Source: Helicobacteraceae bacterium (lineage in GTDB: Bacteria > Campylobacterota > Campylobacteria > Campylobacterales > Sulfurimonadaceae). From it: a DNA stretch of 11,598 nucleotides. The notes under the pieces were generated by a model. That model made no database searches. It had not been told where the DNA came from and saw only the letters and a list, made by a program, of their open reading frames with translations. The DNA is taken from assembly GCA_027083665.1 (NCBI GenBank), contig JALWNV010000255.1, positions 1-11,598 on the forward strand. Reading direction: 5' to 3'. The translations under genes were made by a program, and so were the position numbers. Below, piece after piece: positions 3,563 through 10,634 of this stretch. Position 1 is the stretch's first letter, and every line of letters begins with the position of its first letter.

Positions 3563-3631
3563 TTCAGCAAATTTTCAACCCGGCATTTGCCAATGTCTCA
3601 AGATGGTTTAAGAAAAACGGGTTCATATGGA

Positions 3632-5758
3632 ATGGATGTGCCGAAAATTGAGTGGAGAGAAGATCTCAGTGTCGGGATCAAGGCGATCGACGACGATCAC
3701 CGGCAGTTGATCCGGATCATCAACGATCTCTTTGAAGAAGTGGAATCGGATGCGGATAAAACCGTGCTCGAGCATTATTTTGAAGAGCTTGAGTCATATA
3801 CGCACTATCACTTCGAGCGTGAAGAGAAACTGATGAAAGCGCGGTGCGCTTCGGAGGTGTATGAAGAGCAGATCGGGCGGCATCTCGAACAGCACCGCTA
3901 TTTTGTCGGCAAGATCCCCGCACTCAAGACACGGCTTCTCGGTACGGATTCGAAAGCGGTTTCGCTCGAGATTCTCGACTTTTTGCTGCATTGGCTGATC
4001 GACCACATCATCTATGAAGATCTTTTGCTGACGCAGTGTTTTATCGGACCGCTTGCCAAAGAGAAACATCACGGCATACTCGATCGCTCGTCGGTGTGGT
4101 TCGCCGCCCGGTTTCCGTTTTCGACACGGGTTTTTCTGCTGGTCTTCATTCCGCTGCTGATTCTTGCCGGCGTTTCGGGCTACCTCGGCTGGCAGACCTA
4201 CCGACAGTACCATTATCTTGATGAAGTGCAGAATGTTTCCAGCGCCTTCGTGGGCCTCAACCGTCTGATCAACGCCCTGCAGCGTGAACGCGGACTGGGA
4301 ACGGGGTATCTCGCGTCGAAGGGGAGCCGCTTCAAAGCGGCGCTTTGCAAGCAGCGGGCCGAAACCGATGCCGTACTGGAAGGATGCCGTATCGATCTTG
4401 AGCGGCTGGACGGAAATAAAATCGGTTGCCTGTCACTAGTCGAGCAGTTGGATTCTCTCGACGAGGTCCGTGAAGAGATCGATAACCGCGAGATTTCGGT
4501 CGAGGCCAATATCGACTACTATTCGCTGTTGATCGAACATATCATCGAAATTATCAAAAAATCAGGATATCGCTATTTCTACAATGCCGAAGAAAATGCC
4601 CACGCCCCTTTGCTGATGCTGATGTACCTCAAAGAGAACGAAGGCCTGATACGCAGCGAAGGCGCCTTGCTGCTGTCAAGCGGCTCCGTTTCGCGTGATC
4701 TTGGAAAATTCGATCACCTTTTGATCCTTGGCGAGGCCTATTTCAAGTCTACACAGCTGCTGGCATCTCAGGAACTGCTCGCCAAACTGTTGGCACTGGA
4801 AAATTCGCCGGCAGCCGAAGAGGTCGCGAGGATGCAGGACGCGATCCGCTCCGGGAAAGTCGATTTCAGCGCCGATAAATGGTTTGCGGAGATGAGTGAA
4901 CATATCGATGCCTATGAAAAACTGATCGAACGGATACTTGACAGGGTGCAAAAGAGAGCGACGGCACTCAAGTCGCATGAACTGGCGGTGCTGATCGTGA
5001 TGGCGGTGCTGCTGTTGCTGATCGTTGCGGTAACGATCCTGTTCTCTTATGTCCTTCGCGAAAGCATACTTCGGCCGATCGTATCTGTCACCGACGCCCT
5101 GCGGCGGCTCAGCCGCGGAGAAAAGGTCTTTACACCCATCCGCTATCGTCAGGACGATCCGATCGGCGAGATGATCACGGCGTACAATATGCTCAGGCAA
5201 TCTTTGATCAAAGCGGATTTTGCGGCGATGCTGCTCGAGATGCAGGAGAAAAAAGCGATGAAGTATGCGGAGATGGCTTTTCTCGATCCGCTGACGGGTC
5301 TGCTCAACCGCCGCAAATACAGTGAGATCCTTTTTCAGGAGTTTGTCAAAGCCAAAACGGGAGAGACGGTCTGTTTGCTGATGCTCGATCTCGACCGTTT
5401 CAAACAGGTCAACGATACCTACGGTCACGATACCGGTGACAAGGTATTGCAAATGTTTGCGCATACCGTAAAACGCACGGTACGTTCCGAAGACCTTTTT
5501 GCCCGTATCGGCGGAGAAGAGTTCGCGCTGGTCGTGACGGGAACCTCGAAAGATTCGGTCATGAAAATCGCGCAGAAAATTCTTAAAACGGTCGAAGAGA
5601 TGGACTTGAGCGGGATCCGCAGCGATTTGCATCTGACGGTGAGTATCGGCGTCGCCTGCAGCGATGAAGGGTTCGAAACGCTCGATGCGATGATCAAGCG
5701 TGCGGATCACCGGCTGTACGAGGCCAAACGTGCCGGCCGGAACCGGGTTCGGGGGTAG
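3632..5758 (+). CDS. bacteriohemerythrin-NIT-HAMP-GGDEF diguanylate cyclase
   Basis: A membrane protein of 708 residues if started at ATG 3632. Residues 5-135 are a bacteriohemerythrin domain with all seven diiron ligands: H23, H60, E64, H84, H88, H125, D130. TM1 is about 166-187. A periplasmic helical region (about 190-448) carries NIT-like signatures: LQRERGLGTGYL near 216-227 and LKENEGLIRSEGA near 333-345. TM2 is about 450-474, followed by a HAMP linker and a GGDEF domain (about 545-705) with DLDRFKQVNDTYGHD, an intact GGEEF (627-631) and the inhibitory RxxD site RSED (618-621). It should make c-di-GMP from two GTP under control of oxygen/redox or NO (hemerythrin) and nitrate/nitrite (NIT); that control is inference. 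An in-frame GTG at 3542 gives 30 extra non-homologous residues; GTG 3638 (reading PKIEWREDL) and ATG 3593 are other options. No start has a strong ribosome site. Confidence 0.9.
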   Translation: MDVPKIEWREDLSVGIKAIDDDHRQLIRIINDLFEEVESDADKTVLEHYFEELESYTHYHFEREEKLMKARCASEVYEEQIGRHLEQHRYFVGKIPALKTRLLGTDSKAVSLEILDFLLHWLIDHIIYEDLLLTQCFIGPLAKEKHHGILDRSSVWFAARFPFSTRVFLLVFIPLLILAGVSGYLGWQTYRQYHYLDEVQNVSSAFVGLNRLINALQRERGLGTGYLASKGSRFKAALCKQRAETDAVLEGCRIDLERLDGNKIGCLSLVEQLDSLDEVREEIDNREISVEANIDYYSLLIEHIIEIIKKSGYRYFYNAEENAHAPLLMLMYLKENEGLIRSEGALLLSSGSVSRDLGKFDHLLILGEAYFKSTQLLASQELLAKLLALENSPAAEEVARMQDAIRSGKVDFSADKWFAEMSEHIDAYEKLIERILDRVQKRATALKSHELAVLIVMAVLLLLIVAVTILFSYVLRESILRPIVSVTDALRRLSRGEKVFTPIRYRQDDPIGEMITAYNMLRQSLIKADFAAMLLEMQEKKAMKYAEMAFLDPLTGLLNRRKYSEILFQEFVKAKTGETVCLLMLDLDRFKQVNDTYGHDTGDKVLQMFAHTVKRTVRSEDLFARIGGEEFALVVTGTSKDSVMKIAQKILKTVEEMDLSGIRSDLHLTVSIGVACSDEGFETLDAMIKRADHRLYEAKRAGRNRVRG

Positions 5759-10295: not shown

Positions 10296-10634
10296 ATGGA
10301 CTGGGGTAAAGTCATTTATGTCTTTTTCACACTGATGAGCCTGACCTCGACGGCGGGATTTTTATACGAGCATACGGCGGTGTCGCTGTTTATCGCCGCG
10401 AGCCTGAACCTGATCTCGACGATCCTCAAAATCGGGGTGCGGAACCTGCTTTCGGCGGAATTGCTGGCCAGCTCGCTGGTGGCGGATCTTCACCTGATTC
10501 CGGCCTTTATCTATCTGATCGTCGTTGATAATCTCAACATCGCGATCGCGCTGACTATCGGTGCGCTGATCGCCAACGTCTTTTCGATGGGGCTGGTCTA
10601 TATCGAAAGCTCGAAGAACCGCGAAGAGTACTGA
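10296..10634 (+). CDS. conserved small integral membrane protein (DUF6394-like)
   Basis: This 112-residue, very hydrophobic protein has about three to four predicted helices: roughly 5-23, 28-46, 66-78 and 80-103. It lacks a signal peptide or catalytic motif. The central segment [26 protein letters not shown] looks strongly constrained. I recognise the protein as a Campylobacterota-type family found between secF and leuS, probably the one catalogued as DUF6394, but the number is from memory. Function is unknown. Its place after yajC-secD-secF suggests a link to membrane protein insertion or export, which is inference only. ATG 10296 follows a perfect AAAGGAG four bases upstream, so it is probably translated independently of secF. 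Confidence 0.85.

Follow-up and report, generated by a model that had tools for sequence, protein, structure and literature searches.

A recurrent hemerythrin-NIT-GGDEF architecture in Campylobacterota: a candidate two-input diguanylate cyclase

We analyzed a stretch of DNA of 11,598 nucleotides (hereafter the window; contig JALWNV010000255.1 of assembly GCA_027083665.1) from a Helicobacteraceae bacterium of the family Sulfurimonadaceae. It contains one open reading frame (ORF) of 708 codons plus a stop at 3632-5758 on the plus strand, exactly where an earlier note on this DNA had placed a two-sensor cyclase. According to the ORF list and the Pfam matches, the encoded protein consists of a hemerythrin domain, a transmembrane segment (TM1), a NIT domain, a second transmembrane segment (TM2), a HAMP-like stretch and a GGDEF domain. 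Judging from sequence, structural models and analogy, we lean toward the interpretation that it is a membrane diguanylate cyclase in which a periplasmic switch responds to nitrate/nitrite and a cytoplasmic modulator to oxygen/redox state. The architecture is already present in public protein sets and recurs in 30 proteins, so this organism is not the only one to have it.

All coordinates below are window positions on the plus strand unless a genome or locus is named. The bacteriohemerythrin domain (residues 15-132, 3674..4027) scored above the cut-offs of Pfam Hemerythrin (E = 2.6e-14, 54.3 bits against 25.3), the NCBIfam bacteriohemerythrin model NF033749 (97.6 bits against 84) and TIGR02481 (99.7 bits against 51.75). 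Its top sequence match among solved structures was the hemerythrin domain of DcrH (E = 1.6e-12). The seven diiron ligands (H23, H60, E64, H84, H88, H125 and D130; 3698..4021) were all present and fit the motif H-HxxxE-HxxxH-HxxxxD of O2-binding bacterial hemerythrins (PMC9388753). The claim of the earlier note that this domain is complete was thus borne out. At the other end of the protein, the GGDEF diguanylate cyclase domain (residues 549-705, 5276..5746) matched the entire Pfam profile (E = 2.9e-45, 154.4 bits, cut-off 23.8) and TIGR00254 (2.1e-51). It carries the active-site loop GGEEF (residues 627-631, 5510..5524) together with the metal and nucleotide residues D586, K591, N594 and D595. 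The RSED at residues 618-621 (5483..5494) is presumably an inhibitory I-site, following the RxxD rule. These residues are intact, in agreement with the earlier description of an apparently active cyclase with an RSED site.

Two hydrophobic segments, TM1 (residues 167-185, 4130..4186) and TM2 (residues 453-471, 4988..5044), bracket the NIT domain (residues 212-440, 4265..4951), which covered positions 2-239 of the 239 positions of the Pfam profile (E = 7.2e-32, 112.1 bits, cut-off 24.9). When a profile built from the NIT regions of 11 hemerythrin-NIT proteins was compared with the PDB, NasR (4akk) was matched at E = 2.5e-23 and the next match had an E value of 0.18. We also modeled the NIT region with AlphaFold from 11 sequences, which gave a mean predicted local distance difference test (pLDDT) of 88.3 and a predicted template modeling score (pTM) of 0.89. 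A Foldseek search of the PDB with this model returned only the two chains of NasR at E <= 0.001 (best E = 5.5e-06), with TM-scores of 0.81 and 0.80 by query length. The region that the earlier note had called NIT-like is therefore a NIT domain both by profile and by structure. As a GGDEF domain needs guanosine triphosphate and must be cytoplasmic, the two transmembrane segments would place the hemerythrin in the cytoplasm and the NIT domain in the periplasm. The HAMP domain of the earlier note was found only as a borderline, HAMP-like stretch (residues 478-525, 5063..5206), which scored 21.9 bits for PF00672 against a cut-off of 25. Among 19 relatives scanned (one of which ends before this region), six had a HAMP match at E <= 0.01 and none exceeded the cut-off.

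The putative nitrate pocket has two halves. Q217 and R220 (QxxR, 4280..4291) aligned to the LQCERG helix of NasR, and G338 and R341 (GxxR, 4643..4654) aligned such that R341 is the equivalent of NasR R176. In the nitrate site of NasR, the two arginines come from motifs of the G-x-x-R type, in one of which Gln takes the place of Gly (PMC8199190). E175 and R176 are predicted pocket residues of NasR (PMC7496416), and a sensor variant NR-R176A was used in PMC10450734, where we read NR as non-responsive. In our alignments the NasR motifs were QCER and GQER, and their numbering (Q47xxR50 and G173xxR176) was derived by counting from E175/R176. The four residues were kept in 30/30 hemerythrin-NIT proteins, and in an alignment of 18 the stretch from TM1 to TM2 had only nine invariant positions, these four included. 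This retention supports, without proving, nitrate binding. NasR R236 was also weighed as a pocket residue and set aside, as nothing was found to support it.

The 30 distinct proteins, counted after removal of duplicates, came from several searches. A protein search, which scored only the 7997 candidates sharing most words, gave 76 matches at E <= 1e-10 and added nine proteins (P0003-P0011) with 38-83% identity and all three Pfam domains. A full-length match, or one truncated at a contig end, was present in 6 of 120 relatives and in 8 of 398 genomes belonging to the order; both counts include the window's own genome. A scan of named genomes recovered 54 loci, 12 of which extended past hemerythrin into NIT; these numbers are a lower bound, as the scan was driven by one hemerythrin pattern. 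Ten of the 12 were titled Sulfurimonas, Sulfurimonadaceae, Sulfurovum, Helicobacteraceae or Campylobacterales, and the other two were Telmatospirillum siberiense and Pontibacterium sinense. Pfam matched both hemerythrin and NIT in 25 of the 30 proteins, and the other five (L067, L070, L071, L072 and L075) were recognized by profiles built in this analysis. In total, 28 proteins belonged to the order of the host, to other Campylobacterota or to unnamed entries of databases, and the others were a gammaproteobacterial cyclase and an alphaproteobacterial chemoreceptor. The output domain was GGDEF in 27 proteins and a methyl-accepting chemotaxis protein (MCP) domain in one (L076 of Telmatospirillum; Pfam MCPsignal, 4.1e-33), while two proteins (L038 and L075) had lost their ends at contig ends.

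Identity of the 29 relatives to the window's protein ranged from 24% to 83%. Hemerythrin preceded NIT in 30/30 proteins, an order that the search query had too. All seven iron ligands were present in 26 of the 29 readable hemerythrin domains; P0004 is without the N-terminal stretch bearing H23 and has the other six ligands. In 27/27 readable cyclases, GGEEF, RxxD, D586, K591, N594 and D595 were intact.

The spacing of conserved residues was also informative. All spacings were taken from one alignment, and their end points are themselves conserved residues. From the invariant P174 of TM1 to the pocket residue R220 there were 46 residues in 30/30 proteins, and W417, which lies in the last NIT helix, was separated from L493 of the HAMP-like stretch by 76 residues in 27 of 28 proteins and by 75 in one. 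Inside the NIT domain, the distance between R220 and R341 was 113-127, and the tether from D130, the last iron ligand, to P174 was 37-50 residues across the 30 proteins. In the full-length model, single helices spanned the two fixed-length stretches: one of residues 163-228, which contains TM1 and runs into the NIT pocket, and one of residues 414-494, which contains TM2. The tether that joins the hemerythrin to TM1 (residues 138-162, 4043..4117), which varies in length, was modeled with low confidence, with mean pLDDT values of 65, 51 and 73 in successive blocks of residues 131-160. The fixed spacings, the single helices and the variable tether suggest that the NIT domain is built rigidly into a transmembrane switch and that the hemerythrin hangs on a flexible strap. 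On this view, NIT would act as the rigid switch, and the hemerythrin as a tethered modulator for oxygen/redox state that has decayed on occasion.

Direct support exists for the domains, for their intact residues, for the structural match to NasR and for the conserved spacing; the ligands, the dimer, the topology, the direction of the responses and the combination of inputs are inferred as follows. The protein would be a membrane-bound, probably dimeric cyclase with one sensor on each side of the inner membrane. On the periplasmic side, nitrate (or nitrite) would bind to the NIT domain at a site between R220 and R341. Since one predicted helix holds both R220 and TM1, and the last helix of NIT continues through TM2 to the HAMP-like stretch, binding could shift these helices, and the pairing of the two GGDEF domains would change. 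The cytoplasmic hemerythrin, flexibly tethered to TM1, would contribute a second input, oxygen/redox state, by way of its diiron site, as is the case in Bhr-DGC of Vibrio cholerae. The output would be cyclic di-GMP (c-di-GMP), with product inhibition at RSED. Bhr-DGC is a hemerythrin-GGDEF protein that is dimeric in solution and redox-controlled, and its diferrous form is about 10 times as active as its diferric form (PMC9388753). By analogy, the simplest prediction is that more c-di-GMP would be made when the cell interior is reduced.

A more far-reaching proposal is possible but rather doubtful. These proteins could be a conserved family of coincidence detectors in one polypeptide, which integrate nitrate outside with oxygen/redox state inside, in a non-additive way, at a single cyclase dimer. 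The NIT domain would be the rigid core switch and the hemerythrin a tethered override. c-di-GMP would then report the available respiratory oxidant, and the same front end would be coupled to chemotaxis in an alphaproteobacterium. If the cyclase works as outlined in our main interpretation, it would already provide a direct molecular link from two main respiratory oxidants of sulfur-oxidizing Campylobacterota to the decision to attach or swim, and each input would be addressable by point mutation.

The earlier note regarded the host as a nitrate- and oxygen-respiring organism. As far as genes are concerned, this agrees with the host genome (1.77 Mb in 371 contigs, 76% complete), in which NapA was matched above the cut-off of its family (positions 2-730 of 830) and CcoN was matched as well. 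The host also has 21 GGDEF domains, two further NIT matches and one more hemerythrin, in a frame of 139 residues. Among 14 carrier genomes, NapA exceeded the cut-off in nine and was found in two pieces in one (G250), and NarG was found in one (Pontibacterium, G254). CcoN was matched in 12 of the 14, in 11 of them over the cut-off. In G248, G249 and G251, weak NapA-family matches had one in-frame TGA each and are possibly selenocysteine formate dehydrogenases.

A number of observations weigh against the interpretation as a nitrate- and oxygen-responsive cyclase. Ile340 stands at the position of NasR E175, and thus the Glu expected at this position is missing, E175 being a predicted pocket residue of NasR and not a requirement of the Pfam NIT family. 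Across the 30 proteins this position was Glu in eight and Ile, Leu or Met in 14; of the 55 other NIT domains collected, 52 had Glu. In the same 55 domains, which served as a control, the QxxR/GxxR residues were kept in every case, so they are a mark of the NIT family rather than of this protein. Iron ligands were lost in 3 of the 29 hemerythrin domains (L041, L075 and L122), which makes the redox input appear dispensable in part of the lineages. Retention of the ligands was partly by construction, as the pattern of the named-genome scan contained H23. The pTM of the full-length model was 0.49, and so the domain arrangement is not fixed by the model. The carriers G050 (99% complete), G043 and G252 had neither a NapA nor a NarG match. 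Moreover, NapA over the cut-off was found in 10 of 13 recognizable carriers and in 131 of 200 genomes of the family, in only part of which the protein had been searched for. Ten of these 13 carriers were recognized by the searches of the relatives and of the order, and three (G159, G174 and G194) by NapA places coinciding with those of G251, G250 and G248. An association of carriers with nitrate reductase was rejected, as these counts show no clear enrichment. A PilZ match, as a readout of c-di-GMP, was absent from the 76% complete host genome, and 2 of the 11 genomes checked, the host included, had any PilZ match. The Ile at the E175 position, G050 without NapA or NarG and the host without PilZ count against the hypothesis of the earlier note, in which a comparison of oxygen with nitrate by the protein would govern attachment or motility.

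The losses of iron ligands differed in kind. In L041 and L075, which are close relatives, position 84 is Tyr, position 88 Gln and position 130 Asn; a His and an Asp stand one residue off, so that ligand loss in these two is likely but not certain. L122 has Arg at position 84, and its neighbor in G098, the copy L126, is intact. Proteins with a decayed iron site and a kept nitrate pocket form a natural series, which helps to ask how a cytoplasmic N-terminal domain influences a transmembrane receptor.

We considered three other explanations. It is unlikely, though it deserves some weight, that NIT is the sole relevant input and the hemerythrin an accessory for oxygen or iron buffering or a decaying leftover, which would make the protein in effect a nitrate-responsive cyclase. 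The NIT pocket was kept in 30/30 proteins and the iron site in 26/29, the exceptions being the related pair L041/L075 and the tandem copy L122, and the hemerythrin-TM1 tether ranged over 37-50 residues whereas the NIT-TM1 spacing was constant. However, seven ligands kept in 26/29 domains of relatives so divergent suggest selection on the iron site. The hemerythrin also stood ahead of NIT in every protein, although the query used that order. The reverse assignment, with the hemerythrin alone sensing and NIT as a structural dimerization module whose ligand was lost or changed (e.g. to another small anion), seems improbable. It would fit the Ile, Leu or Met at the E175 position in 14/30 proteins, the window's protein included, and the NIT score of 112 bits as compared with 227 bits for the best chemoreceptor NITs. 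Yet Q217, R220, G338 and R341 belong to the nine invariant positions between TM1 and TM2 and stayed invariant where the iron site had decayed.

Diiron hemerythrin-like sites react with nitric oxide (NO). The two sensors might therefore follow a nitrogen-oxide series, with nitrate/nitrite read by NIT outside and NO (or peroxide) by hemerythrin inside, and the signal would be denitrification stress and not oxygen. A nitrate reductase match in 11 of the 14 carrier genomes, counting the split NapA and the one NarG, is consistent with this. We nevertheless hold it to be quite improbable, as hemerythrins are placed under oxygen and redox in a review of c-di-GMP sensors (PMC8846402).

We also examined the history of the two domains with trees that cover 23 of the 30 proteins; the seven found in genomes of the order are absent. 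In the first trees, the Telmatospirillum protein grouped with other hemerythrins and with other NITs. This suggested two separate fusions, which are not claimed here, as these trees had long branches. In later trees without very long branches (4 of 68 rows dropped for hemerythrin, 2 of 78 for NIT), a constraint of all 23 together was not rejected by the approximately unbiased test (p-AU = 0.854 for hemerythrin and 0.599 for NIT). The 22 proteins without Telmatospirillum formed one side of a branch, with a support of 97 in the NIT tree and 87 (not starred) in the hemerythrin tree. As the 22 were grouped in both trees, their hemerythrin and NIT domains appear to have travelled together; Telmatospirillum may share this origin. 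The combination is one reached by ordinary domain shuffling.

Several known systems resemble parts of this protein. Like Bhr-DGC, it has an N-terminal hemerythrin and a C-terminal GGDEF domain; unlike that two-domain protein, it has TM1, NIT, TM2 and a HAMP-like stretch between them (PMC9388753). It shares the NIT fold and the pocket residues with Klebsiella oxytoca NasR, in which, however, NIT is coupled to an RNA-binding ANTAR domain, whereas here it would be periplasmic and cyclase-linked, with Ile at the E175 position. DcrH of Desulfovibrio vulgaris (periplasmic domain-HAMP-MCP-hemerythrin) is likewise a membrane receptor with a periplasmic region and a cytoplasmic hemerythrin, but its hemerythrin is C-terminal, its output is chemotaxis and its periplasmic region is not termed NIT in the available part of PMC9388753. 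In staphylococci, NreA/NreB jointly sense oxygen and nitrate in one signaling unit, although this involves two proteins, a nitrate-binding GAF domain, an oxygen-labile [4Fe-4S] cluster and a transcriptional output (PMC8139620). Another counterpart, found in this analysis, is L076 of Telmatospirillum siberiense, which has the same hemerythrin-NIT order with intact iron ligands and pocket, and an MCP signaling domain instead of GGDEF.

The earlier note knew of no described protein with both sensors. This was not contradicted by the literature searched, as no description of the combination was found in the available parts of open-licence papers on hemerythrin with NIT, GGDEF, nitrate or domain architecture; it did not hold for sequence data, since public protein sets already contained the architecture. 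PMC1592074 was the only paper found with both 'hemerythrin' and 'NIT domain', and its available text described no fusion. PMC4919030 reports 56 hemerythrin architectures, with hemerythrin-GGDEF second, and NIT may appear in its supplementary architecture figure. In the parts available, PMC10066037 and PMC13401364 mentioned hemerythrin and not NIT, and PMC8846402 did not contain the words nitrate, nitrite or NIT. The single domains and hemerythrin-GGDEF are thus known, and the conserved trio of hemerythrin, NIT and GGDEF, with its MCP counterpart, appears to be new.

The gene is flanked by lnt (divergent) and malQ (convergent), and beyond malQ lie yajC, secD, secF, a DUF6394 gene and leuS (identified in part by eye). 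No respiratory or chemotaxis gene was recognized within the window. The DUF6394 gene (10296-10634, between secF and leuS) encodes a small protein of a function-unknown family. The start codon (3627-3640) is uncertain and could be ATG at 3632 or GTG at 3638. By eye, no clear ribosome-binding site precedes ATG 3632, and the homolog P0003 begins two codons later, at the position of GTG 3638. A Foldseek search of viral proteins with the full model gave eight matches at E <= 0.001, five of them named GGDEF or cyclase, and provided no lead.

Gene neighborhoods of some relatives were also recorded. L122 and L126 are tandem hemerythrin-NIT-cyclase genes (G098:C1:1775985-1779636). A NIT chemoreceptor frame (L075:1824-5331) lies directly upstream of the hemerythrin-NIT gene with the likely loss of three ligands, and in G053 (L041) a same-strand NIT match lies upstream at 2067777-2068685. 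In Pontibacterium sinense, the cbb3 oxidase subunit I gene ccoN (L077:11713-13140) is about 3.5 kb downstream of the hemerythrin-NIT-cyclase gene. By eye, L070, L071, L072 and L074 (Sulfurimonas, Sulfurimonadaceae) have a common setting, in which an apparent rmuC gene lies on the upstream side and an apparent DEAD-box helicase gene on the downstream side.

Almost all genomes of the host's family encode NIT domains, with matches in 193 of 200 genomes and up to 12 in one of them (G068). The NIT proteins inspected were mostly chemoreceptors: 53 of the 57 frames underlying the 55 other NIT domains had an MCP motif. The four frames without it were L030 (a cut frame), L060, the small NIT protein L002 and P0025. 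P0025 has Pfam NIT, PAS, GGDEF and EAL domains and no hemerythrin, which indicates that NIT can accompany c-di-GMP domains without hemerythrin. Tandem NIT matches were found in frames of about 950 residues (G166:C19:8807-10303, G137:C1:620096-621592, G116:C1:1710025-1711521 and others), and these look like double-NIT receptors.

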